Assembly (NCBI GenBank): GCA_015066065.1
Contig: SVPB01000003.1
Coordinates: 1-50,154, forward strand
Direction of reading: 5' to 3'
Source: Oscillospiraceae bacterium
GTDB taxonomy: Bacteria; Bacillota; Clostridia; Oscillospirales; Acutalibacteraceae
Length of the DNA: 50,154 nt
Made by a program: the position numbers and the translations under genes. This document shows, piece after piece, positions 1-11,645 of this stretch (position 1 is its first letter; each line of letters starts with the position of its first letter). The notes beneath the pieces were generated by a model. The model was not told the DNA's origin. It saw only the letters and a list, made by a program, of their open reading frames with translations, and made no database searches.

Positions 1-770
1 ACCCCTCATTTCAAAATGACAGTCATAAAGCATTTCAAAATGTAAATAGGAACGCTTTGCTCATTTCGAAATGAAAGTCATATATCATTTCAAAACGAAG
101 GGCATAAAAAATTGCTTTCAGAGATTGCGCTGACCCAAACTCGAAATGAAAGTACTCTCGAACGGATGGTCAGCACAATCCTTTTTTGAGGGAATGAAAG
201 TAATTTCAAAATATCATTTCAAAACTATTGTCATAGAGCATATCGAAAAGTAAATCATCAATCATACAAGAGCCATATTTAAGGGAAAGTAATAATAAAA
301 TGTTATCTTTAATTAATCTATAATTACTCTATATGGCTCTTAAAAGGAAAGTTCCGCAGGGCATAATACACCCACTGTCAATGGTGTGCACGAACCTTCA
401 TTTCTTACTGATTCTTTATTGACGCGGGGTATTATGCCCTGCTCATCTCGGCTCTCCGACTGCGTCTCCGAGCCGTTTCTATCTGACTTCGTCCAATAGA
501 AACGGCTCGGCTCCCAAAAAGAGAGTCATAAATCATTTCTAAAGGACAATCATCTATCATCATAGAAATGATAGTCATAGCACCTGCTTTGTAGTTTGTG
601 TGTTATCTTCTTCGGCTTCCTGCAGCTTGTCATTCATAATACGAATGACAACTTGCAGAAAGCCGAAAAGCTTTAATCTTGTCCAAGTTTATACTTGGCG
701 CAGGTGCAACTTTCTCTCGAAGAGACAGTCATAAATCATCCCGAAGCGAAAGTTCTTGTGCGATATTCTG
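1..770 (-). repeat. Array of hairpins joined by a recurring imperfect linker
   Basis: No credible coding region is present. A linker close to TCATTTCGAAATGAAAGTCA followed by TATATCATTTC recurs, complete or partial, near 6-42, 61-97, 141-155, 187-250, 516-545, 548-580 and 713-752. Between the copies lie separate inverted repeats: 123-135/168-180, 269-278/331-340, 356-369/429-442 (14 bp, GCAGGGCATAATAC), 469-482/496-509 (14 bp), and a composite module closed by 580-587/700-707 that contains a 25-base imperfect hairpin (611-635/643-667) and a small one (683-698). The arms differ between modules while the linker is shared. A minus-strand transcript from the promoter at 1,938-1,966 would run through it. 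The function is unknown; the strand is inferred from that promoter, and the array may continue left of the window. Confidence 0.6.
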
Positions 771-1760
771 CTGTAAAATAAGGTTAGTACTTGGCTTAAT
801 CTATTTTGCTTTCATCGCAAGATTAATAGATTTTCCGTGCGTGTTCTCTTGAAATCCAAGAGTGTAAATAACCTTGTATTATTTACTGACGCTACGCCGA
901 GTGCAAGGCATTTCAGCCCAGCCGAGACTAAACAACTCGTTCGGCGGGGATTTTCATTTTGTATTTAAACTACGATTAAATCCCGGAAACTTCGTATGCA
1001 ATTCCCATAAGAGACGGAGATTCCCTTAATGGACGGTAGCACCACCGCTTGAGCAGTTTTATTTACCGACGAAACTCTCAAACGTCGTGGATTCCATAAT
1101 TTTCGTCAATAACTTAAGGCTGAATCCAAGCCGTCGTTACGCACTTATTTTCGTTCACAGATTGCCATAAGTGAAAGCAGATCTGTATATTGCACTTTGC
1201 ATCTTCGCCCATTGTGCACAAGTGGTTTTGTCACACTGCACCATCCGGTCTGCCGTGTGCGCAGGTTCGCAGTCGAACATCCTTGTTTCATAACGGCTCT
1301 GCTATCCGCACATTTTAGTTCACATTGCCTTTGTGAAGGGCTTGTATATCACAGCTTTTCCTATTCCTTTGGACCACCGCGTGAAAGTGGGTTCTGATTT
1401 ATTGCGGGAAATCATAAAACCGAGCAACGTAATAGGTCGATTAAAAATGTTTCGCCTATCTTCCATATATCACCCTGTCCGCTGCCGTAACAGTGACAGC
1501 TCTTTAATTCCGTATTTCCAGTTCTTCGGTCCTACGGATAATCAGCCTTAGAGCATCGACTGATGAAGTTATACCTTAACTTCAAAGGGTTCTCTGCTAG
1601 TGATTTACAGCCTGCCGCAGAACTCAGACTGCTGTACTCGGCACCAATGCTTTGGCGCAACTAACTTCCCACGTCACATACAATCATTTTGAACCACCTT
1701 CCTTTATGCGTTTATCTTGTTCCCGTCACTTACCGGAGAACAAGACATAAAAAGAAGGCA
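771..1760 (-). ncRNA. Candidate large structured noncoding RNA
   Basis: About 1 kb with no convincing ORF on either strand but dense local complementarity. Examples are the closing repeat 780-786/869-875, the hairpin TCTTGTTCCCG/CGGAGAACAAGA (1715-1745), and, read on the minus strand, TGAAGTTA-loop-TAACTTCA, GCGCCAA-loop-TTGGTGC and TTCAC-loop-GTGAA. It lies directly downstream of a near-consensus minus-strand promoter. One tiny ORF with a good Shine-Dalgarno (AAGGAAGGTGG; MIVCDVGS, 1687-1661) is the only plausible translated part. Size and ornate folding recall the ROOL/GOLLD type of giant RNA found in mobile elements of Firmicutes, but I cannot confirm membership from the sequence alone. 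I saw no group II intron domain V and no rRNA motif. Confidence 0.4.
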
Positions 1761-1908
1761 AAAAGATAACAAAAAAGCACCTACCCCGAAAGGTAAGTGC
1801 TAACTTGCAGTCCTTTTGCCTTTGCCCTATACGCAGGAACCAAGCATAACAAACAAGCGCAACTAATCCTTTGGGAACATTGCAATTTTCGTTATCTTTT
1901 AAAAACAC
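1761..1908 (-). terminator. Intrinsic terminator in an attenuator-like short leader
   Basis: On the minus strand the hairpin GCACTTACC-loop-GGTAGGTGC (1777-1800) is followed by six T residues (1771-1776). A second, perfect 10-bp pairing (AAAAGATAAC at 1761-1770 with GTTATCTTTT at 1891-1900) encloses the whole leader and overlaps the region just after the T tract. A 60-codon ORF (GTG at 1908 to 1726) runs through the terminator, but its Shine-Dalgarno abuts the start codon, so translation is doubtful. The layout (strong promoter, short leader, terminator, competing long-range stem) suggests either a short RNA of about 160 nt or an attenuator controlling read-through into the structured region. 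Confidence 0.55.
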
Positions 1909-1937
1909 TCCTGCTTTATTTTAAATAGGTCATTATT

Positions 1938-1966
1938 AGTTTAACACCTATATTTAAATATGTCAA
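1938..1966 (-). promoter_or_regulatory. Strong sigma-A type promoter facing the structured region
   Basis: On the minus strand TTGACA (1966-1961), a 17-base spacer and TAAACT (1943-1938) form a near-consensus promoter. It lies between the XRE gene that ends at 2006 and the ORF-poor region, so its product must be the leader and the structured RNA. Confidence 0.75.
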
Positions 1967-2005: not shown

Positions 2006-2227
2006 TTAAAATAGGTCTCTTGGGTCTATTCCAAGAGCCTCGGCAATATAGAATATCATACTAAACGATGGCTCTATTTTGCCCGACATAACGCGGCTGA
2101 TGTACCCGGGATTTTTACCTAAGTCGGTGCTTAGATCCTTGTACGTCTTATTTTTCTTCTCCATTGCAGCATACAGTTTGGAGTAAAAATTGTGTTTAAA
2201 CTCATACAATGTTTTTACTTCTTTCAT
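2006..2227 (-). CDS. Small XRE-family helix-turn-helix regulator
   Basis: A 73-residue protein that is essentially one Cro/CI-type helix-turn-helix domain. The stretch KTYKDLSTDLGKNPGYISRV (roughly residues 27-46) has the helix-turn-recognition-helix pattern, and the C-terminus DPRDLF is typical of single-domain XRE proteins. The start ATG at 2227 has AAAGAGG upstream. It probably binds DNA as a dimer and represses promoters on the mobile element, the nearest being the strong promoter at 1,938-1,966 just downstream or its own. A short hairpin followed by a T run lies between its likely promoter and the start codon. The target is inferred from position only. Confidence 0.75.
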   Translation of the reverse strand: MKEVKTLYEFKHNFYSKLYAAMEKKNKTYKDLSTDLGKNPGYISRVMSGKIEPSFSMIFYIAEALGIDPRDLF

Positions 2228-2277: not shown

Positions 2278-2392
2278 TGGTTAAAAATATGATAAATGTT
2301 ATATACGACTTTCAAGAAAACATTAACTGAAGGGTAAAAAACACAAAAAACAGCGAATATTTGCTCATACAACACACTTTTTTGAGCGAATA

Positions 2393-2438: not shown

Positions 2439-2717
2439 TTATCGGAACAAATCTGAATGACTGCCAACTCTGTATAGCATTAAGACAAGAACATCGTCAA
2501 TAACTTCATATACCAGCAACCAATCAGGTTCTATATGGCATTCTCGGCAACCTTTGTAATTACCGCTTAAATCGTGATCGCGATATTTTTCTTCCAAAGG
2601 TTCGCCATTGGCCAACTTTTCAATTACTGCAAAAAGTTTTTCCGTATCCTTACCTTGCTTTTTGGCGAGTTTTAAATCCTTTTTGAACTGTGTTGTAAAT
2701 CTAACTTCGTACTTCAT
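2439..2717 (-). CDS. yafQ: YafQ/RelE-family mRNA interferase toxin
   Basis: A 92-residue toxin of the RelE/ParE superfamily, closest by pattern to YafQ: the N-terminus MKYEVRFTTQFKKDLKLAKK, the middle block EEKYRDHDLSGNYKGCRECHIEPDWLLVY, and the C-terminus LMLYRVGSHSDLF. The conserved basic and histidine residues expected of the YafQ active site (His in CHIEPDW and in the GSHSDLF tail) are visible. Family knowledge says YafQ cleaves mRNA on the ribosome and is neutralised by DinJ/RelB. The start overlaps the end of the antitoxin gene by four bases (ATGA-type coupling), as expected for translational coupling. It probably stabilises the surrounding island. Confidence 0.88.
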   Translation of the reverse strand: MKYEVRFTTQFKKDLKLAKKQGKDTEKLFAVIEKLANGEPLEEKYRDHDLSGNYKGCRECHIEPDWLLVYEVIDDVLVLMLYRVGSHSDLFR

Positions 2718-2986
2718 ACTTCAAGTGCCGCCCTTAAATCTGCCATATTACCATAACCGGTTGCGGTTTTATCATAGGCAATAGTTCTGCCTTCACGGAT
2801 AGCAGCGGCGGTAGTCTCGTTAGGAACATTTAGTTTTACTTCAAAAGGAATACCATTCTCTCTGATAGCCTGTCTTAAAAAGATATTAACAGCAGTAGTC
2901 ATATTAAGCCCTAAAGCGTCAAAAATCTTTTCAGCCTGTGCTTTAATTTCCTTATCCGTCCGAATATTTAAATTAGTAGACTCCAT
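2714..2986 (-). CDS. dinJ: RelB/DinJ-family antitoxin
   Basis: A 90-residue antitoxin with an N-terminal ribbon-helix-helix DNA-binding region (NLNIRTDKEIKAQAEKIFDALGLNMTTAVNIFLRQ), which is the RelB/DinJ signature, followed by a toxin-wrapping tail. The ORF-track start is upstream, but ATG at 2986 has a good GGAGGTG seven bases before it and gives the family's usual N-terminus, so I use it. It is transcribed with the toxin from a near-consensus promoter whose spacer holds short inverted repeats; autorepression there is expected for this family but is inferred. Confidence 0.88.
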   Translation of the reverse strand: MESTNLNIRTDKEIKAQAEKIFDALGLNMTTAVNIFLRQAIRENGIPFEVKLNVPNETTAAAIREGRTIAYDKTATGYGNMADLRAALEV

Positions 2987-3016
2987 ATAATACACCTCCG
3001 TTATTATTCTATGCAT

Positions 3017-3045
3017 ATTGTAACACATAATGCACACAATGTCAA
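3017..3045 (-). promoter_or_regulatory. Promoter of the toxin-antitoxin operon
   Basis: Minus strand TTGACA (3045-3040), 17-base spacer, TACAAT (3022-3017). The spacer and flanks contain TTGT/ACAA inverted repeats that could be the antitoxin operator. Confidence 0.75.
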
Positions 3046-3146
3046 CACAAAATGTTGGTGTTATAACGAATTATACCAATCTTAAAACTAACTAATATTA
3101 CATTTTATCACTGAATGAAAAAATTGACTAATCATACATTTTCTTA

Positions 3147-3178
3147 ATCTTGCTTACTATCTTGCTTACTATCTTGCT
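3147..3178. repeat. Short tandem repeat in an otherwise empty intergenic stretch
   Basis: ATCTTGCTTACT occurs twice in tandem with a third partial copy. The surrounding 3,046-3,227 stretch is AT-rich and holds no ORF or other signal I can support. Confidence 0.7.
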
Positions 3179-3227
3179 AAAAATCAATAAACATATCAAA
3201 ATATATTGATTTTTCTTTAAGCAGATA

Positions 3228-3265
3228 AAAACAGACCATATTTTAGAATATGCCCTAAAATATGG
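3228..3265 (-). terminator. Terminator after the cohesin gene
   Basis: Perfect 11-base arms CCATATTTTAG (3236-3246) and CTAAAATATGG (3255-3265). On the minus strand they are followed by TCTGTTTTTATC. They lie 12 bases past the stop codon of the cohesin-domain gene. Confidence 0.7.
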
Positions 3266-3276
3266 CCTATTAGATG

Positions 3277-4491
3277 TTATTGTTTTTTCTTAATCAAAGC
3301 ATTTCCAAAATATCCACCGACCACACCAATAGCAAGTGCACCAACACCAACTATGAGTAGCCACCACCAAGCAATACCGCCTTCGGTTTTTGGAGTAGCG
3401 TCGGTATCGGGTTGAGTGTCAACCGGTTCGTCTGTAGAGGGTTCATCAGGAAGTTCTTCTACAGAACCGTCATGGGCTGCTGCACGTTTTACGATTACGG
3501 TGTACGTTTTCTTATCGCCATTTTCAGCTGTGCAAATTACCTTAACAGGATTATCTTGACCTGCAGCAAGGTTGTCGCCGCCTTCTACTGCAACAGAAGC
3601 TTTACCATCTACCGCTGAACCACCAATTTTAATACTGGTTGTTTCATAAGGCAACCAAACCACATATTGAGTGGTATCGGTATTAAATGCAGGAGAAAGT
3701 AAGAATCCGTCTACAGAAATGCCCGAAAGTTTATTGTTGTCACTTGCCTTATAATTCGGATCCTGCGCTCTTTTTACAGAAATGGTATAGGTTTTCTTAG
3801 CACCGTTTTCTGCTGTTACAGTAACCGTCACCTTGGTTGTTCCGTTAGCAGTAAGATTAGGGCTATTAACTGAAACCTTTGCCTTAGAATCTGCGGCAGT
3901 AGCACTAACATTAAGCTTAGACACCTCAAACGGAACGTTAGCGGTATAGTTTGTTGTGCCTGCTGAGAATGCAGGAGATATCGTAGCATTACTTACGGTA
4001 AGACTTGCAAGATTGTTATCGGTTGCGAGAGGTGCGGCGACTGTAGTCGAATATGTAACAGTACCAACATTGGCATCTGCACTACCGTCAGAAGCTTTAA
4101 CACCGGTATAAGAGATTTTGATATTTGTGCCTGCCGCAACAGATTTTACCTTAAATGTAGCAGTAAATAAAGTTTTGTTGCCGTTTATAGGATTGCTTAA
4201 ATTGTTATCATATGCAACAAAATTATTACCGTTAAATTCAACCGCCCAAGGGGAACCAATCTTTTGAGTTGTTCCAGACAGGGTGACCTGATTGCTATCA
4301 TAAGACAGTGTGCCTGAGGCGCCGAAAATTCCGCTACCATTCAGATTAAAACTTAATGTTATGGTATCGCCTGCACGAACTGTGCCAGGACCGGTTAAAC
4401 TTGCACTTGCGCTTGCTGCCGAAACAGTGATCGGCAACATTAACGCAAGGGTTAAAACCAAAACTGTTAAAATTGAAATTACTTTTTTCAT
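3277..4491 (-). CDS. Cohesin-domain, membrane-anchored surface protein
   Basis: A 404-residue exported protein. Residues 1-25 form a signal peptide ending ...LPITVSAASA. Residues of about 28-150 (GPGTVRAGDTITLSFNLNG...LSYDSNQVTL) read as a cohesin domain, the receptor module that binds dockerins. Two cadherin-like beta-sandwich repeats follow (about 155-240 and 250-335), each ending in a TAENGxKKTYTxxVKRA motif. Then come a Pro/Asp/Thr-rich spacer and a C-terminal transmembrane helix (WWWLLIVGVGALAIGVVGGYFG) with a KKKQ tail. No LPXTG motif is present, so anchoring should be in the membrane. The gene starts 11 bases after a dockerin-bearing gene, with AAGGAG before the ATG, so the two are co-transcribed and probably bind each other. 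Confidence 0.8.
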   Translation of the reverse strand: MKKVISILTVLVLTLALMLPITVSAASASASLTGPGTVRAGDTITLSFNLNGSGIFGASGTLSYDSNQVTLSGTTQKIGSPWAVEFNGNNFVAYDNNLSNPINGNKTLFTATFKVKSVAAGTNIKISYTGVKASDGSADANVGTVTYSTTVAAPLATDNNLASLTVSNATISPAFSAGTTNYTANVPFEVSKLNVSATAADSKAKVSVNSPNLTANGTTKVTVTVTAENGAKKTYTISVKRAQDPNYKASDNNKLSGISVDGFLLSPAFNTDTTQYVVWLPYETTSIKIGGSAVDGKASVAVEGGDNLAAGQDNPVKVICTAENGDKKTYTVIVKRAAAHDGSVEELPDEPSTDEPVDTQPDTDATPKTEGGIAWWWLLIVGVGALAIGVVGGYFGNALIKKKQ

Positions 4492-4502
4492 ATTCTTTCT
4501 CC

Positions 4503-7500
4503 TTATCTTGCGGTGATACTGCCTTTACCAAGAATCTTGGCTTTAACCTGAATAAAGTCTGTAATAGAAATTCCACTATCACCATTTGTGTTGGCTGCAG
4601 TAGCATACACACCCGTTAAAGTTGACTTGTTCAGTATATGTGCCTTTATAGCTATCATATCTGTAACTGAAATGGAACCATCTCCGTTGGTATCACCCGT
4701 AACAATAACTGTGTAAGATGTTTTTACAGTATTTCCATCCATAATCTTAACGACCATTCCGGTACCAACCGCAGTGTTGCCACTAACCTCAGAGCTGCCT
4801 TTATAAACCTTGCAGTAAGAACCTTCGTTAAGTCCGGACAACAACGAAGAAACCGTTGTGCCTGCAGTTATCTTGCTAATATTGTTACCACTTATGGTGT
4901 GTTTTGAAGACGTAATTGCGGAAGGAACTTTTGCTTTTACTGAAATTGTGAAGGTGTCAACTTTACCACAATGCTCAACAGTTACAGTTTGTGTTCCGGC
5001 GTTCATACCATACGAGGCTGACCAATTTGATGATATTATTGCTGTTGTGTTATTATCATAATAAGCTGTTATAACCATTCCCGAAAAATCCATATCATCG
5101 TGTTCAACATAGGATAATTTTGTGGGCTTTGAAGTAACTTTTATTGATAAAAGATTTTTGCTGTAGGTTGCTTCACAGGTATCACATTCATAATAAATGT
5201 TTCCATTTTTGTCAGTCTTGCCTTTGTCCCAAATATGTATGCCAGTCGCTTCAATGATGTTTTGTTTTACTAGTACCTCTTCGCAAACAGAACAATGCTT
5301 TCCATCAGTTAGGCCTGTTTTGGTACAAGTCGGCTCAACACGATTATCTAAAACCTCTGTGTGACCTAGTGCATCTGGGAAACGCTCTTCTTGATAATCA
5401 CAAAACTTACATTTGTAAATTTCATGTCCTGTTTCAGTACAATTAGGCTTTTTTACGGTTTCTAACAATTCCAGTTGATGTTTGCCTTCTTCAATAAGCA
5501 GTAATGATTTAGAAAGCACATTTCCTGTTTTATCTATTGCGCGCAAAATCACATAACCGGGTTTTAACGGAGAAATGGTAGCTGCAGAAGTCTTTTTAAT
5601 CGAGGAACCCCAAGTAATAGTACTAGAGGAAACATTAGTTATTTTGGCAGTTGTTTCATCGGATATGATAAAATCAAAGTCCTTGTTCGCTTCATACTCT
5701 AATGTGATAGTTTCATCAGTTGTTAGTTTGTAATCATATACCAAACTTAGATTCGTAACATCAAAAGTTAGGCTTCCTCCATTATAAGTAACCGTAATAG
5801 TTTGTTCTCCAGCTTTAGTCTTATCGTATCCCGACACCATGGAAGGAATCACATCTATTTCTTCAACAGTTCCGTCGTTATAAATTTCAGCAATTTTAGC
5901 ACCTGATATATCAAAATCTTCTAACCCAACATAATACTCCGTTTTATATGGTAAGGATACTATACTTATACCTTGTACCTTTTGGATAAAGTTTATGCTG
6001 TTTGTAATTAACTCAGGATATGTATAATCTGATCCTGTTGGCATTCTCCAAACATTTTCAAAATCAAAACCGCTAAATGTAGTTTGTGATTGCAAGTGTT
6101 CAGATGTACATTTAATCGCACCTTCATCGCCGTATTCCTCGCCAGAACTAACGTTATTTAAATAATAACAATTTATAAATTTTGCATCCGGATTGCTTAG
6201 ATCAACAAGTAGTCCCGAAATTGCACCGCCTGCTCGTTCGGATGTAATATAGCCAACATTGTAACACGACTGAATTATATTATGATTTGTTCCGGCTATT
6301 CCACCGGCATACGAATATGAGTCATCACCATTTATCGCTCGAATATATCCTGTGTTAAAACAATCTTGTATTAATCCTGAGTTTGTACCGGCTATTCCAC
6401 CGGCATCATCTGTCGAATATATATATCCTGTGTTATAACAATTTTTAACAGTTCCACTATACACTACACCAACAATGCCGCCCAATGTGGTTGAACCGGT
6501 TTCATCTTCAATTTTTATATCGCAAGTATTAAAACAATTCTCAATAATTCCATTATCATTACGCCCAGACACACCGCCCGCACTTCCATACTTAATCGAA
6601 ATGTGTCCGTCTTCTATGCCTAAATTTTTAATGGTTCCACTATTGGTGTTAAATAAACCTGCGAAAACTGTCTGTTCGGATTGAATGTTTATAATAATGT
6701 TTTTTACACTATATCCATTTCCATCAAATACACCTGTGAAAGATTTATTCGTGGTTCCTGAACCGATCGGCTTCCAACCAGTTCCATTGTTATAAAATTT
6801 ACCATTTACTTCAAAATCAGACTCTAAGAATTCTATGTTTTTTACTAATTTAAAATGAGAAGATAAATAATTTCTTGTGTTATTCAAATGAGATGCACAA
6901 GCAATATAATAAGGAGATGCTTCCGTTCCATTTCCACCATTAAATGTTGCGTTTTCATTTACAATAAAACAGTCGACACCCTTTATTGTGGGATATTTGT
7001 AGTAATTACCCTCTGCAAATTCCCAAATAGATTCAAAATCAAAATTTATGTATGTGGATTGGTTCTTCAAATTTGAAAGGGAACGTTCTGATGTCCCAGT
7101 AATAGTTTTTCCACCTTCAATAGCAGGATAAAAGCAATCTTTTGCTGTAACTCCACTAGCATATGCAATAATTCCGCCTTTTTCAGCAGAACTAATTGTG
7201 CCCACGTTATAACAATTACTGATTTTAAGTCCGTTAGAGTATCCGACTATACCACCAACTCTACCATAAGTTCCATCTGCCGATAATTCTCCTGCATTAA
7301 AACAGTCTTTAATAACATCTTTAGAATTGGTGAGCGCAACGATACCGCCAACTTCGCTATCATAAGAAGCGTAGGAATTTCCAGGAAGTTGTTCAGAAAA
7401 CGATATGCCATTTAGTTTGCCAAAATTAGCGCAGCTAGTTATTTCGGTTTCAACTATATCTCCTGCTATTCCACCAATATTGTGAGTTCCAGTAAGTTCC

Positions 7501-8240
7501 CCATAATTAACAGATTCGCTTATGCTACCTTCTTGAACTGCACCACATATTCCACCGACTCGGTCAAAGGCGCCATCACATGTAATTTTTACATCACTTT
7601 GGCAGTCGATTATATCTGCCCAAGCTGTTCTTCCACAAATACCTCCAACATATACACTTTCATAATTGGGTGCTGTATCAATTACAATAGTTCCATTTGT
7701 TTTACAATTCTTTATGGCTGTGCTTGAAGCGGAACCGGAAACGCATCCCACATCAGCCCGTTTTGATAATTTAAGCGAAATATTGACAGAGCGCATTTCT
7801 AGATCTCTTACTTCGCCAGATACATCACCAAAGAGACCTATATATCCCAAATTAGAAGAATCACCATATATCGTAAGACCTTCTATGTAGTGACCGTTTC
7901 CATCAAAGGTTCCTGTAAAAGACCAAAAATAAGAACCGCTCGTCGTAATTATGGCTTCCCAACCATTTCCATTATTATAAAAATCTCCCCCTACGGCAAA
8001 ATCCGTAGCAGAAAATTCAATATCATCAATCAATTTATAATGTGCATCAAGTTCATTACGAACATTATTTAAGTGTTCCTTTGTTTCGATCAAGTAAGGA
8101 TCAGCTTGTGTACCACTACCACCAGCAAATTGTGTTGTTACTGCATTTGCCGTTATTGCCCCCAATGGCAAAGTAGTAATAATCATAGCAACGGAAAGCA
8201 ACACCGCAAATAGTTGTTTCCCTTTCTTTTTAATCTTCAT
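4503..8240 (-). CDS. Large secreted protein with GLUG repeats, Ig-like domains and a C-terminal dockerin
   Basis: A 1,245-residue exported protein; ATG 8240 is chosen because GGAGGAGG precedes it and a signal peptide (MKIKKKGKQLF...AITANA) follows at once. Two blocks of about 300 residues start with a GSGTQADPYLI/GNGTEASPYYI module and contain GLUG-type repeats (GGICG, GGIAG, NCYN patterns) that suggest a beta-helical fold. Next come a bacterial Ig-like (group 3) domain, a Cys-pair region (CTETGHEIYKCKFC, CTKTG...CSVC, CDTC), a second Ig-like domain, and a C-terminal type I dockerin with two calcium loops (DTNGDGSISVTD and NTNGDSGISITD). I see no enzyme domain. It is the first gene of an operon with the cohesin protein and is preceded by a structured leader. 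Confidence 0.82.
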   Translation of the reverse strand: MKIKKKGKQLFAVLLSVAMIITTLPLGAITANAVTTQFAGGSGTQADPYLIETKEHLNNVRNELDAHYKLIDDIEFSATDFAVGGDFYNNGNGWEAIITTSGSYFWSFTGTFDGNGHYIEGLTIYGDSSNLGYIGLFGDVSGEVRDLEMRSVNISLKLSKRADVGCVSGSASSTAIKNCKTNGTIVIDTAPNYESVYVGGICGRTAWADIIDCQSDVKITCDGAFDRVGGICGAVQEGSISESVNYGELTGTHNIGGIAGDIVETEITSCANFGKLNGISFSEQLPGNSYASYDSEVGGIVALTNSKDVIKDCFNAGELSADGTYGRVGGIVGYSNGLKISNCYNVGTISSAEKGGIIAYASGVTAKDCFYPAIEGGKTITGTSERSLSNLKNQSTYINFDFESIWEFAEGNYYKYPTIKGVDCFIVNENATFNGGNGTEASPYYIACASHLNNTRNYLSSHFKLVKNIEFLESDFEVNGKFYNNGTGWKPIGSGTTNKSFTGVFDGNGYSVKNIIINIQSEQTVFAGLFNTNSGTIKNLGIEDGHISIKYGSAGGVSGRNDNGIIENCFNTCDIKIEDETGSTTLGGIVGVVYSGTVKNCYNTGYIYSTDDAGGIAGTNSGLIQDCFNTGYIRAINGDDSYSYAGGIAGTNHNIIQSCYNVGYITSERAGGAISGLLVDLSNPDAKFINCYYLNNVSSGEEYGDEGAIKCTSEHLQSQTTFSGFDFENVWRMPTGSDYTYPELITNSINFIQKVQGISIVSLPYKTEYYVGLEDFDISGAKIAEIYNDGTVEEIDVIPSMVSGYDKTKAGEQTITVTYNGGSLTFDVTNLSLVYDYKLTTDETITLEYEANKDFDFIISDETTAKITNVSSSTITWGSSIKKTSAATISPLKPGYVILRAIDKTGNVLSKSLLLIEEGKHQLELLETVKKPNCTETGHEIYKCKFCDYQEERFPDALGHTEVLDNRVEPTCTKTGLTDGKHCSVCEEVLVKQNIIEATGIHIWDKGKTDKNGNIYYECDTCEATYSKNLLSIKVTSKPTKLSYVEHDDMDFSGMVITAYYDNNTTAIISSNWSASYGMNAGTQTVTVEHCGKVDTFTISVKAKVPSAITSSKHTISGNNISKITAGTTVSSLLSGLNEGSYCKVYKGSSEVSGNTAVGTGMVVKIMDGNTVKTSYTVIVTGDTNGDGSISVTDMIAIKAHILNKSTLTGVYATAANTNGDSGISITDFIQVKAKILGKGSITAR

Positions 8241-8486
8241 AATGATGAGCCTCCTCCAAGGATTTCTAGTATTAAAAAAGTGCGCCAACCGAAGCCGACG
8301 CACCGAAAAACGCAAACCCCGATTGTCGCCAAACAAATTTCAAGTATGAGAGGTTTCCCTACACAATAACCTGATGGAATTTGCGTTTTTACCAAATTCA
8401 CATGATTATTGTGCGCAAAAAGGGTATACTTACCCCTTTGCAAGGAAATCAACCATCATACTTTTATAAAATTTGTTTGGCATTTA
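8241..8486 (-). promoter_or_regulatory. Riboswitch-like 5' leader with terminator, upstream of the dockerin gene
   Basis: About 240 nt between the probable start site (near 8,484) and the ATG. A perfect 13-bp stem (GCCAAACAAATTT, 8469-8481 with 8328-8340) closes a domain. Inside are an 8-bp stem (8342-8349/8457-8464), a hairpin AAAGGGTA/TACCCCTTT (8419-8439), an 8-bp stem (8362-8369/8406-8413) and a hairpin GAATTT/AAATTC (8377-8399). The last hairpin carries TTTGCGTTTTT (8380-8390), which matches perfectly 11 bases just 3' of the closing stem in the RNA (8306-8316), a possible pseudoknot. A terminator (8273-8303) follows at once. I recognise no known riboswitch class. Confidence 0.6.
8273..8303 (-). 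terminator. Leader terminator of the dockerin/cohesin operon
   Basis: Minus strand GTGCGTCGG-CTTC-GGTTGGCGCAC followed by six T residues (8274-8279). It lies about 33 bases upstream of the start codon, so it must be bypassed for expression. Confidence 0.7.
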
Positions 8487-8489
8487 TTA

Positions 8490-8496
8490 TTATATC
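8490..8496 (-). promoter_or_regulatory. Probable extended -10 promoter of the dockerin/cohesin operon
   Basis: Minus strand reads GTGATATAATAAT, a consensus TATAAT preceded by TGA (extended -10). No good -35 element is visible at 17 bases. Transcription would begin almost exactly at the closing stem of the leader. Confidence 0.5.
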
Positions 8497-8582
8497 ACAC
8501 TTACTAACAAAAGAAAAGTAGTTTTCAAAAATTATCAATTTTTACGGCTAGACTATAAAAGATTATACAAATCAAAGTATTC

Positions 8583-8756
8583 TCATTGTGATTTCTTTCT
8601 CTCCAAACCGCCATCACAAGCGACAAATAGTGTTATCCCAAAGCATATAAGGAAAGCTCCGGTTGCTGTATTGGCTTTATATAATAAAGCAAAATATGCA
8701 GTTTGAATTGTAGTTAAAGTCAAGATACTTACTACTATAAATTTAAATACTTTCAT
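8583..8756 (-). CDS. Small two-helix membrane protein next to the SLOG gene
   Basis: A 57-residue peptide with two predicted membrane helices (FIVVSILTLTTIQTAYFALLY and TGAFLICFGITLFVAC) and a basic tail GGLERKKSQ. The ATG at 8756 has AAGGAG eight bases before it, so I prefer it over the longer ORF-track start. It begins 14 bases after the SLOG gene stop and is almost certainly co-transcribed with it. I do not recognise a family. Pairing of a SLOG nucleotide-binding protein with a small membrane protein resembles SLOG-linked conflict modules with membrane effectors, but this is an analogy and not a match. Confidence 0.6.
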   Translation of the reverse strand: MKVFKFIVVSILTLTTIQTAYFALLYKANTATGAFLICFGITLFVACDGGLERKKSQ

Positions 8757-8770
8757 TTTTCTTCTCCTTT

Positions 8771-9250
8771 TCAATTGTCAACACAGTCGGCAAGATTGAT
8801 TATGGGTTTATTTTGCTCGGAAGCATATTTTACGGTTTTATAAGCACCGCCCTCGTTATGCTCGATATAGCAAATAACCAAATCAGCTCTATCCGCCATC
8901 TCGCGATTGCGAATTTGTATAGCTGATTTCGGATGTGCTTTTGAAGCTGCATACGAAATTTCAATATCACTATAATAATCTTCAAAATAATTTTGGTTAT
9001 TAATGTATTCCGCGGTTGGGTACGGTAGCATCAAAACAAGAGAACTATTATCATCCCTATAATTTTTTCGTACACGAAGCACAGTTGATGAAACGCACTG
9101 GTCGAATTCACCGTTACGACCCACCAAAAAATCCACATACTCTTTTTCGTTAATAATCTTTCTTATCTGCTCTTCGAGCAGTTCTTCAACCTTAAACGGA
9201 TTATCTATATACCTGTGACCGAAAAAGGCGACGGTAAAAATCTCTAACAC
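8771..9250 (-). CDS. SLOG-fold (YpsA/DUF1273-like) nucleotide-binding protein
   Basis: A 159-residue single-domain protein. The N-terminus IFTVAFFGHRYID matches the first strand and glycine loop of YpsA-like SLOG proteins. DFLVGRNGEFDQCVSSTVL and the late block MADRADLVICYIEHNEGGAYKTVKYA are the other conserved elements of this family, whose known or proposed role is binding nucleotides or nucleotide-derived ligands. The ATG at 9259 has its Shine-Dalgarno too close; GTG at 9250 has AAGGA eight bases upstream and starts right at the domain, so I choose it. The gene is divergent from an XRE regulator, with palindromic sites between them, and is followed by a two-TM peptide. Confidence 0.72.
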   Translation of the reverse strand: MLEIFTVAFFGHRYIDNPFKVEELLEEQIRKIINEKEYVDFLVGRNGEFDQCVSSTVLRVRKNYRDDNSSLVLMLPYPTAEYINNQNYFEDYYSDIEISYAASKAHPKSAIQIRNREMADRADLVICYIEHNEGGAYKTVKYASEQNKPIINLADCVDN

Positions 9251-9305
9251 GTTATACATCCTTATCACACATTACTAATTTTAGTTTTAACATCTACTAC
9301 TATTA

Positions 9306-9366
9306 TACCGCTTTTAGCGGTAATTATCAACTATAATCGGTAGTTTTATCGTGAATATTACCGCTT
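9306..9366. promoter_or_regulatory. Operator sites between the SLOG gene and the XRE regulator
   Basis: A perfect palindrome TACCGCT-TTT-AGCGGTA (9306-9322), a half site CGGTA (9338-9342) and another half site TTACCGCTTA (9358-9366) lie in the divergent intergenic region. The spacing suggests cooperative binding by the adjacent XRE protein to control both directions. Confidence 0.6.
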
Positions 9367-9403
9367 AAATTATTATACAATAATAAAAAGCGAGGTGTTG
9401 ACG

Positions 9404-9715
9404 ATGGATTTGCAATTCATTAGAGATAGGATTTCTGTTTTAAGAACGAAAAAGAATGTTTCTGAATATAGAATGAGCACAGATTTAGGGCACAGCAAAA
9501 GTTACATGCAGAGTATTTCATCTGGCAGATCAATGCCGTCCTTAGGAGAGTTCCTTTATATATGTGAATATCTCGGTGTTACTCCTAGAGAGTTCTTCGA
9601 TGAAGATATAAAAGAACCACAGCTCGTTCAGAAATTATATGAGTTGACTCGTAATATGTCCCAGGAAGATCTTGATGTGCTTATTAGCACCGCAGAACGA
9701 TTAAATAACAAATAA
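9404..9715 (+). CDS. XRE-family transcriptional regulator
   Basis: A 103-residue regulator with an N-terminal helix-turn-helix (RDRISVLRTKKNVSEYRMSTDLGHSKSYMQSISSGRSMPSLGEFLYICEYL, about residues 6-57) and a short C-terminal extension (QKLYELTRNMSQEDLDVLISTAERL) that may mediate dimerisation. ATG 9404 has AGGTG eight bases upstream. The gene diverges from the SLOG cassette, and ACCGCT-type palindromes lie between them, so it probably represses the cassette and itself. Its own terminator follows immediately, which separates it from the recombinase gene. Confidence 0.8.
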   Translation: MDLQFIRDRISVLRTKKNVSEYRMSTDLGHSKSYMQSISSGRSMPSLGEFLYICEYLGVTPREFFDEDIKEPQLVQKLYELTRNMSQEDLDVLISTAERLNNK

Positions 9716-9718
9716 ACG

Positions 9719-9760
9719 AAAGGCAGCCTCACTATCAAAAGTGAGACTGCCTTTTCTTTT
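9719..9760 (+). terminator. Terminator after the XRE gene
   Basis: AAAGGCAGCCTCACT-loop-AGTGAGACTGCCTTTTCTTTT: a long stem followed by a T-rich run, directly after the stop codon. Confidence 0.85.
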
Positions 9761-9839
9761 GTAAAATTGGATATTAAGATAATATATAAAGTAAAAGTAT
9801 TGATTTTTATAGTTGGTTGTGGTAATATAATATCATAAT

Positions 9840-9868
9840 TTGACAATGAACAACGAATGGTTTATTGA
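9840..9868 (+). promoter_or_regulatory. Possible recombinase promoter
   Basis: TTGACA, 17-base spacer, TATTGA, ending 28 bases upstream of the recombinase start. The -10 matches four of six positions; an alternative TATAAT lies at about 9826. Confidence 0.4.
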
Positions 9869-9896
9869 CGAAAAGTTTGAGAGGAGATTTTAGTTT

Positions 9897-11645
9897 ATGG
9901 ATGTACATTCTGTCCGTCAGATGATGAGGACTAAAAGTATATACGAAATACCTATGCGCGTTACATTCTACGCCCGTGTATCTTCCGAAAAGGACGAGCA
10001 GTTAAACTCTCTTGACAACCAGATATCCTATTATCGTAACTTTATAAAGAAAAACGCTAACTGGGAGTTTGTTGAGGGATATATAGACGAAGGTCTTTCG
10101 GGTATGAGCACCAAAAAGCGCGAGAATTTTCACAATATGATTAGTGATGCAAAGGCAGGACTATTTGACCTTGTTATCACAAAGGAAATTACTCGTTTTG
10201 CCCGTAATACTCTTGACAGTATTCAATACACTCGTGACCTACTTTCCTACGGTGTAGGTGTATTCTTTCAGAACGATAACATCAATACTCTTGATGAAGA
10301 TAGTGAGCTTCGACTTACTATTATGTCAGGTATTGCTCAGGACGAATTACGCAAGTTGTCTTCCCGTATCAAATTTGGTCATCAAGAGGCCATAAAGAAA
10401 AATGTTGTCCTTGGTAACAGCCGTATTTTCGGCTACCGTAAGGACAACAAAAGGTTAGTTATTGACGAAAAAGAAGCAGAAATGGTTCGCGAATTATTTG
10501 AACTTTACGCAACAGACCAATACAGTATGAAGCAGATTGAGGAAATCTTTTGGAACAAGGGTTACCGCAACAACAATGGTAAACGTATTTGCCACAGTAC
10601 AATGTCTAATACCATTTCAAACCCAAAGTACAAGGGCTATTATGTAGGCAACAAGGTAAAGATAATTGATATGTTTACCAAAAAGCAAAAGTTTTTACCG
10701 CCTGAGGAATGGGTTATGTTTAAGGACGAAACCGGCGAAATTGTCCCTGCCATTGTCAGCGAAGACCTTTGGGAAAAAGCCAACGCTGTTCTTAGAAGGC
10801 GTAGCCATGATGTAAAGAACAGACAGAATCTTTGCAACCACCCGAATCTGCTAACTGGTAAAATGTATTGCACCCATTGTGGAAAGCTCTACTACCGCAA
10901 GGATAGCAAAGACCGCAAAGGCAATGTGTTGTCACGTTGGATATGTAGTGGCAAAATCAACAACGGCACTGATTCTTGTCCCTCGTTCACTATTTACGAA
11001 GAAGAAATCAAAGAAGTTCTTACTGAGGTTTTTAAAGACACTGCCGAGGATGCAAGATTGATTATTGAGGAATATTCAAATATGTATGCAGAAGTTTTAG
11101 CAAAAGACACTTCATCTGGGGAACTGCAAAAGCTCAAAGACCGACTTGATTTTTTATCAAAGAAAAAATCAAAGTTGCTTGAGTATAATATTGCGGGTCA
11201 AATCAACGACCGAGATTTTGTTGAGATGAACAAACAAATTTCGGACGAGTCTGCTGAGGTTTACTCTACTATTCAGGAAATTGAATATGAAATCAATTCA
11301 CGAACTGAATATAAGCAAAGAATAGAAGAGATACGAAATATTTTGCTTAAAGCCGAAAATGAAGCGAGCCAGAATATGATTGACTCGGCATTCATAAACA
11401 GGTATATTGATAAAATTTACGTTACACCTATTGAAGAAGGCACTGTCGAAATTTCGGTAAAGATATTCTCCGGACAGACGGTTGAGAAACATTTGTCCAA
11501 CCTACGAAAACGCCATAAATCTATTAAAAATGCCGAAAAAACCGATGAAAACGAGTCCTCTGATGACGGTATTGTAGATATTGGCAGTACGGGACACACT
11601 TTTAAGAAGATGATCAAGGCTTACGAGGAGAACAACCTGAAGTAA
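9897..11645 (+). CDS. Large serine recombinase (site-specific integrase)
   Basis: A 582-residue recombinase. The resolvase catalytic domain begins with VTFYARVSSEKDEQLNSLDNQ, the nucleophilic serine being in YARVS near residue 29, and continues through FDLVITKEITRFARN and IMSGIAQDELRKLSSRIKFG. The Recombinase domain (GNSRIFGYRKDNKRLVIDEKEAEMVRELF...) follows. Next comes a zinc ribbon (CTHCGKLYYR...CSGKINNGTDSCPSF), then a long coiled coil and a charged C-terminus. This is the full architecture of integrases of the TnpX/phiC31 type that move conjugative or mobilizable elements. The gene reads towards the right-hand boundary of the AT-rich island, as expected for an integrase next to its attachment site. 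Confidence 0.93.
   Translation: MDVHSVRQMMRTKSIYEIPMRVTFYARVSSEKDEQLNSLDNQISYYRNFIKKNANWEFVEGYIDEGLSGMSTKKRENFHNMISDAKAGLFDLVITKEITRFARNTLDSIQYTRDLLSYGVGVFFQNDNINTLDEDSELRLTIMSGIAQDELRKLSSRIKFGHQEAIKKNVVLGNSRIFGYRKDNKRLVIDEKEAEMVRELFELYATDQYSMKQIEEIFWNKGYRNNNGKRICHSTMSNTISNPKYKGYYVGNKVKIIDMFTKKQKFLPPEEWVMFKDETGEIVPAIVSEDLWEKANAVLRRRSHDVKNRQNLCNHPNLLTGKMYCTHCGKLYYRKDSKDRKGNVLSRWICSGKINNGTDSCPSFTIYEEEIKEVLTEVFKDTAEDARLIIEEYSNMYAEVLAKDTSSGELQKLKDRLDFLSKKKSKLLEYNIAGQINDRDFVEMNKQISDESAEVYSTIQEIEYEINSRTEYKQRIEEIRNILLKAENEASQNMIDSAFINRYIDKIYVTPIEEGTVEISVKIFSGQTVEKHLSNLRKRHKSIKNAEKTDENESSDDGIVDIGSTGHTFKKMIKAYEENNLK

Follow-up and report, generated by a model that had tools for sequence, protein, structure and literature searches.

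The window analyzed here is the whole contig SVPB01000003.1 (50,154 nucleotides; G000:C46:1-50154) from the 1.7-Mb, 91-contig draft genome of an Oscillospiraceae bacterium, assembly GCA_015066065.1. At its left end lies a gene-free locus of about 1.95 kb, window positions 1 to 1966, annotated on the minus strand. A promoter at its right end is followed by a conserved core and then, as the promoter-distal two fifths or so, by an array of hairpin modules separated by copies of a short linker. The array reaches the left contig edge, as the first-pass annotation of this DNA had stated. On the far side of the locus, the window and several of its relatives carry a small helix-turn-helix regulator gene; in close relatives the sequence to the left of window position 1 continues into a promoter-like or attachment site (att)-like block of about 100 bp and then a tyrosine recombinase gene (about 317 aa). 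The array is probably the 3' portion of a gene that specifies a very large, structured noncoding RNA, carried in an integrated mobile-element module. Two readings had been offered at the outset, a cassette array and the repeated part of a very long RNA. The second is the better, since the array belongs to an RNA-like minus-strand locus of about 2 kb; the first describes the shape of the region, but the modules are gene-free and the array does not stand alone.

The array (4..757, minus strand) comprises twelve copies of a 24-nt unit, with consensus TCATWTCGAAAnGAnARTCATA, that start at window positions 4, 28, 59, 83, 151, 212, 236, 271, 507, 531, 710, and 734. In 500 mononucleotide shuffles of the array the mean was 0.06 copies and the maximum one, a test made slightly circular by training of the profile on 22 related loci that include the window, although the other loci weigh most. 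The linker copies are therefore real and not chance similarity. Across the 22 loci the trained profile finds 223 copies, and the spacing between near-neighbor copies peaks at exactly 24 nt (80 of about 140 intervals). What had first been described as a 31-nt linker is a repeated linker indeed, but it consists of a single 24-nt unit and the beginning of the unit that follows. The minus strand of window 1-760 folds at -282 kcal/mol, compared with -178.5 +/- 6.8 in dinucleotide shuffles (z = -15.3), while z is -11.6 for the plus strand and near -1 for a coding control. This result and a mechanical hairpin search bear out the self-complementarity originally noted. The region is also, as was said then, not an array of clustered regularly interspaced short palindromic repeats (CRISPR), because its repeats are imperfect and its spacers are hairpins. 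The idea that the linker is itself a simple covarying hairpin was dropped, as most copies conserve sequence and not pairing.

A BLAST comparison with related genomes found that the array is not conserved alone; window positions 1 to about 1966 form one conserved stretch, with 80-88% identity in other genera, and it occurs across several gut families of the Clostridia. When 84,980 genomes were scanned for nothing but the linker pattern, 17 loci were found, nearly all in genomes labelled as Clostridia-type and derived from ruminant or other gut samples. Full-length relatives of the window locus are L040, L042, L044, L047, and L050. A second clade (L033, L119, L120), a third clade (L036, L041), and the loci L038, L051, L052, and L113 share the layout in diverged sequence, and large deletions mark the copies in G003, L030, and L108. 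Viral contigs gave no match to the linker, the core, or the recombinase, and plasmids searched with the window DNA gave none either. Assembly breaks are unusually frequent at or near the locus (the window, L032, L035, L037, L039, L040, L045, L048, L049, and L051-L054), which suggests several copies of the module or variation at the population level. A chromosomal gene is interrupted in L030 (around 7162-7192) by a module that ends directly past its first linker copy. In L108 a truncated module adjoins an intact gene similar to the one interrupted in L030, hinting at a preferred neighborhood.

Read on the minus strand, the locus begins with a predicted sigma-A promoter (1938..1966), TTGACA-17-TAAACT with a TG before the -10 box; at the matching position L047 and L049 have a perfect TTGACA-17-TATAAT. 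About 140 nt past the promoter is a terminator-like hairpin (1776..1801, minus strand) with a counterpart in L119, possibly an attenuator or the end of a short RNA. Short leader open reading frames 3' of the promoter are conserved in L119 and L120 only. The core (764..1938, minus strand) is predicted to form a multi-branch structure, to judge from homologues in other genera, covariation, and a covariance model. In an alignment of 11 sequences, the 3' half of the core has 17 pairs changed on both sides, versus 10.1 in shuffled alignments, and 43 double-change cells versus 14.2; its covariation score is 0.230 versus 0.141. Each of the three values was reached in 0 of 500 shuffles, and the signal is lost when pair partners are slid by one to three columns. 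Support in the 5' half is weaker, with double changes in 4 of 55 pairs.

The same comparisons address the strand. When folds are computed with G.U pairs forbidden, single mismatches in helices, read as the minus strand, are G.T in 45 cases and A.C in 11, and the bias is reversed on the plus strand. Counting one locus per lineage (the window, L033, L119, L038, L041, L051, L052, and L113), the ratio is 24:6 (sign test, ~0.0007). Because G.U pairs are tolerated in RNA, the excess of G.T on the minus strand marks it as the functional strand. A covariance model built over window 889-1006 from clades 1 and 2 recovers the held-out clade 3, L052, and L051 in the expected place and on the expected strand, with E-values of 9e-7, 1e-5, 0.001, and 0.04. 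A class-wide search with the covariance model, covering 291 genomes, returned the window itself as sole match, so the RNA appears to be rare. As far as comparison of sequences can establish it, these results show that window 1-1966 evolves as an RNA on the minus strand, with a conserved promoter and a fixed neighborhood.

The hairpins had been called unrelated to one another, and this did not survive comparison between clades. Two modules recur in other loci: module P (122..182; GATTGCGCTGACC / GGTCAGCACAATCC) in L040, L044, L047, L126, L112, and L010, and module Q (266..345; CAAGAGCCATAT / ATATGGCTCTT) in L042, L044, L047, and L050. Three further hairpins, located by mechanical search, define modules A (356..442; 17-bp arms at 356-372/426-442 plus an inner helix), B (468..510; 20-bp arms at 468-487/491-510), and C (580..707; an outer GCACCTG/CAGGTGC helix around 28-nt arms at 611-638/640-667). 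All five lie on the minus strand. Across clades, modules A, B, C, and E reappear with the same structure in other arm letters, and the order of A and B is kept. A and B are found in all clades, B with its arms changed around GTTTCTWT; their arm letters are unrelated between clades, yet the arms pair in nearly all loci. Direct arm-by-arm comparison of module B found CCGAGCCGTTTCTATCTGAC, CGGTCATCAGTTTCTTTCTGCTC, GGCAACAGTTTCTTTATGACC, and CGGCAAAAGCCGTTTCTATT as arms, each pairing with its own partner. Module E consists of a hairpin and, after it, a small ACGCC/GGCGTG one; its position varies among L033, L119, L038, and L051.

Modules are also lost between strains, in keeping with the gain and loss first suspected. 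Window 457-713, comprising B and C, is missing from L044, window 208-747 from G003, and the first linker block from both L050 and L126. Deletion endpoints map to linker copies or to short runs of CTCTC or AAAG within these copies. The locus is mosaic as well, since the part of L051 to the right of window position 1138 shares 91% identity with the window and its left part does not. An 85-bp block (window 1177-1261) that ends near a copy of motif D, described below, is present in the window, L044, and L051 and missing from L040, L042, and L047-L050.

The array has a constant neighbor. Every one of the 17 loci from the linker scan carries, next to the array and reading away from it, a gene for the same XerC/D-like tyrosine recombinase, or the opening codons of that gene where the contig ends; L030 and L031 have another gene in between. 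The recombinase was not found in the window's own assembly, which is consistent with an assembly break at the locus. The protein matches Pfam family PF00589 (Phage_integrase domain), and its catalytic residues R157, H268, R271, H300, and Y309 are invariant in 11 recombinases. The recombinases score far under the curated NCBIfam cut-offs for XerC, XerD, and integron integrase (at most 41.6 bits to TIGR02249, the integron-integrase model, for which the cut-off is 265 bits). Nearest among solved structures are XerA (4a8e) and IntI4 (2a3v). In L042 and L120, a hairpin loop before the recombinase gene (GUCCCU in the RNA sense) is complementary to a conserved AGGGACA past the stop codon, a possible long-range pairing around the coding region.

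Three short DNA motifs occur at the locus. The block of about 100 bp beside the recombinase carries repeated motifs D (ATTTTCGTACAGAG) and I (ATTTTCGTCA), and copies of both stand in the RNA core of the window as well: I (ATTTTCGTCA) at 1099..1108 and D (ATTTTCGTTCACAG) at 1147..1160, both on the plus strand, the latter at a boundary of the stretch over which L033, L034, and L051 are homologous to the window. In L031 and L126 a 568-aa gene lies between recombinase and array, inserted in motif D (CTGTG^TACGAAAA) and flanked at both ends by D-like sequence, as if by site-specific insertion. The third motif, the operator-like M (TTTCAAGAAAACATTAACT; 2310..2328, plus strand), is at the promoter of the regulator gene; it had 0 matches in 250 kb of shuffled sequence. 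That gene (2009..2227, minus strand) encodes a small Cro/C1-type protein (HTH_3 in Pfam) and would be the module's repressor. The RNA promoter of L036 and L041 has a copy of motif M as well, and two more stand before the recombinase. Its presence at RNA, recombinase, and repressor promoters suggests that one repressor acts on all three. We had considered M as a marker of recombination ends and dropped this, because M overlaps the -35 boxes of the repressor and RNA promoters. L052 has a Phd/Doc toxin-antitoxin pair between recombinase and array (about 2777-3550, in reverse orientation) that reads away from the recombinase and has motif M upstream.

Relatives of the recombinase with about 26-36% identity are present on Bacillota plasmids. 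On nine of these, by a plasmid gene table that is incomplete, the gene-free stretch upstream of the recombinase on the sense strand measures 1122 nt in Natranaerobius, 1532 in Brevibacillus, 996 and 657 in two Alicyclobacillus, 1556 in Sutcliffiella, 1289 in Vallitalea, 546 in Sporosarcina, 1542 in Paenibacillus polymyxa, and 1306 in Heyndrickxia. These leaders and an Avibacterium region have sense-strand fold z-scores of -3.4 to -16.6, which alone are not decisive, since some control spacers on the same plasmids reach -8. Sense-strand mismatches in the leaders are G.T in 14 cases and A.C in 3, versus 2 and 5 in control spacers, the same direction as in the window. Upstream of the recombinase on an Alicyclobacillus plasmid (L148:5169-5480), a linker, GGAGTAGCNNAAGCNAAGAAG, occurs about eight times between hairpins, apparently an independent case of a common linker between variable stems. 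Within the structured region that precedes its recombinase, a Vallitalea plasmid (L163:2547-3086) carries a 108-nt tandem repeat in four copies.

We regard a link between a large structured RNA and the recombinase as very likely. As proposed, transcription would start from the sigma-A promoter near 1966 and run leftward on the minus strand past window position 1, to give an RNA of perhaps 1.2-2 kb, varying by clade. The module would consist, in one direction, of the small repressor gene, the RNA gene, and the recombinase gene, with RNA and recombinase expressed together under the repressor. The 24-nt repeats are most likely repeated protein-binding motifs, for the recombinase or a host protein, and the hairpin modules would hold them in place. 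Such a division of labor would explain why modules are lost or swapped while the repeats persist. A more tentative step, which may well prove wrong, is that the RNA would work together with the recombinase protein or act upon it, perhaps through these repeats.

Several points weigh against this picture. Expression of the RNA is predicted from sequence comparison, and binding between recombinase and RNA is purely inferred. The partial RNA locus of G003 adjoins a lipoprotein gene and not a recombinase. The covariance model of the core domain, which found held-out gut clades, found no plasmid leader, and the plasmid RNAs may be only analogous to the gut RNA. Among more distant chromosomal relatives the stretch upstream of the gene measures anywhere from 9 to 1260 nt, which makes the association common and not universal; the safe claim, at the level of sequence, is that this recombinase family appears often, not always, to be preceded by a large structured RNA region. 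Finally, clades 1 and 2 have no clear terminator between RNA and recombinase, and the RNA there may be a long leader.

This last point leads to the foremost of the alternatives, which ranks ahead of a self-assembling RNA and then a DNA platform. The whole region could be a cis-acting leader of the recombinase mRNA, in which an attenuator (1801-1776) and the folded region keep integration rare. Strand and order are identical in all loci, the terminator-like hairpin of the window and L119 does follow closely on the promoter, and read-through into the recombinase is possible in clades 1 and 2. However, in L036 and L041 the RNA stops at a 15-bp terminator that lies about 300 nt short of the recombinase, with M-type promoter motifs after it, and L113 has a strong terminator at a like distance, so that in these three loci the RNA is its own transcription unit; a conserved fold of 2 kb also far exceeds the needs of attenuation. 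We consider a leader unlikely on balance, while giving it more weight than any other rival. Slightly less likely still is a self-assembling RNA of the GOLLD, ROOL, or OLE kind, with the recombinase only a co-resident of the element. The locus resembles these RNAs in size, ornate fold, origin from the gut, and placement on mobile elements (PMC12286853), but neither GOLLD, ROOL, nor OLE is matched in Rfam, the pairing with the recombinase is much tighter than co-residence needs, and a similar layout is seen on unrelated plasmids.

The region could also act as DNA, with the recombinase working on the D and I motifs next to its gene and in the core, and the hairpin modules exchanged as gene-less cassettes in the manner of an integron. 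That the recombinase reads away from the array fits such a platform. Suggestive, too, though few in number, are the gene that interrupts motif D beside the recombinase in L031, the D and I motifs on both sides of the array together with the break of homology at the inner D in L033, L034, and L051, and the variant motif (TGTAGATTAAAA) that L038 has alike in both places. Against this, the wobble asymmetry favors one strand as RNA, module losses resemble deletions between linker copies and not exchanges at D, the modules lack genes, and the recombinase falls far under the integron-integrase cut-off. We judge a DNA platform improbable. A degenerate coding region or selfish repeat region without RNA function might account for the large-deletion copies in G003, L030, and L108, but it is already contradicted by the conserved promoter, compensatory changes, strand-specific wobbles, and conservation across families, and we give it hardly any credence.

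The preferred interpretation, a large noncoding RNA tied to the recombinase, can be compared with several known systems. Rfam covariance models, run at permissive thresholds on the window, on eight homologues, and on 14 distant loci, gave nothing above curated cut-offs for this locus, GOLLD, ROOL, and OLE included. These are very large, elaborately folded bacterial RNAs of unknown function, of which GOLLD and ROOL are found on phages or prophages (PMC12286853). The window RNA resembles them in the features named above, and by size and complexity fits the class of large ornate bacterial RNAs of mobile elements while matching none of its families; it differs in being up to about twice as long, in its repeated 24-nt unit, and in its tie to one tyrosine recombinase family. 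The STAXI motif, a tandem structured motif near XerDC integrases and other DNA-handling genes, possibly acts as RNA or single-stranded DNA (PMC2864571). STAXI consists of two or three pseudoknots, whereas the window repeat separates large hairpins inside an RNA of about 2 kb, and the STAXI model has no match in the window at E up to 1 or in the homologues at E up to 0.05. Group I and group II intron models match neither window nor homologues; the distant locus L129 gave one group II match. The module recalls an integron in its recombinase reading away from a hairpin array with a common element, and in modules gained and lost. It is unlike one in that the enzyme is not of the IntI family by NCBIfam, the modules are gene-free, and the structure is conserved as minus-strand RNA.

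A recombinase with its own RNA is known in another setting. IS110 elements are reported to encode their recombinase beside their own structured noncoding RNA, the bridge RNA (PMC11208158). The window module would resemble them in gene arrangement, a recombinase gene beside a structured RNA. RNA-guided recombination of the IS110 type involves RNA loops that pair with donor and target DNA; in the module described here, copies of motifs D and I occur in the RNA core as well as next to the recombinase. The IS110 enzyme belongs to a different family from the tyrosine recombinase, and its RNA is far smaller than the window RNA. No large RNA tied to tyrosine recombinases is described in the open-access literature searched, subscription journals lying outside the search. 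We conclude that the large structured RNA gene is real and conserved, that the libraries searched hold no description of it, and that its new features relative to known large RNAs are the repeated-linker architecture and the fixed partner gene.

The rest of the element in the window (2442-11645) holds a YafQ/RelB toxin-antitoxin pair and cohesin/cadherin-like and dockerin/Big_3 surface proteins, these genes all reading toward the RNA, and then a large serine recombinase (9897-11645), beyond which chromosomal genes follow. The cargo of relatives is wholly different, with restriction-modification, Hsp70-like, sigma factor, and acetyltransferase genes.

We know of only a handful of bacterial RNAs of such size and complexity, most of them without a known role. 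Here the function of the RNA is testable, since it has a constant partner gene and probably shares a repressor with it, deletion variants occur naturally, and relatives are found on Bacillota plasmids. The most far-reaching possibility, to which we assign little weight, is that one family of tyrosine recombinases found across Bacillota works with a dedicated structured RNA of 1-2 kb as a scaffold or sequence-specifying partner in the recombination machinery, so that evolutionary swaps of modules change its behavior. An RNA-dependent tyrosine recombinase would, to our knowledge, be the first of its kind. If the RNA does take part in recombination, RNA-associated DNA recombination would extend to the tyrosine recombinases; that an RNA is the partner or controller of a recombinase family is an idea that can be tested.
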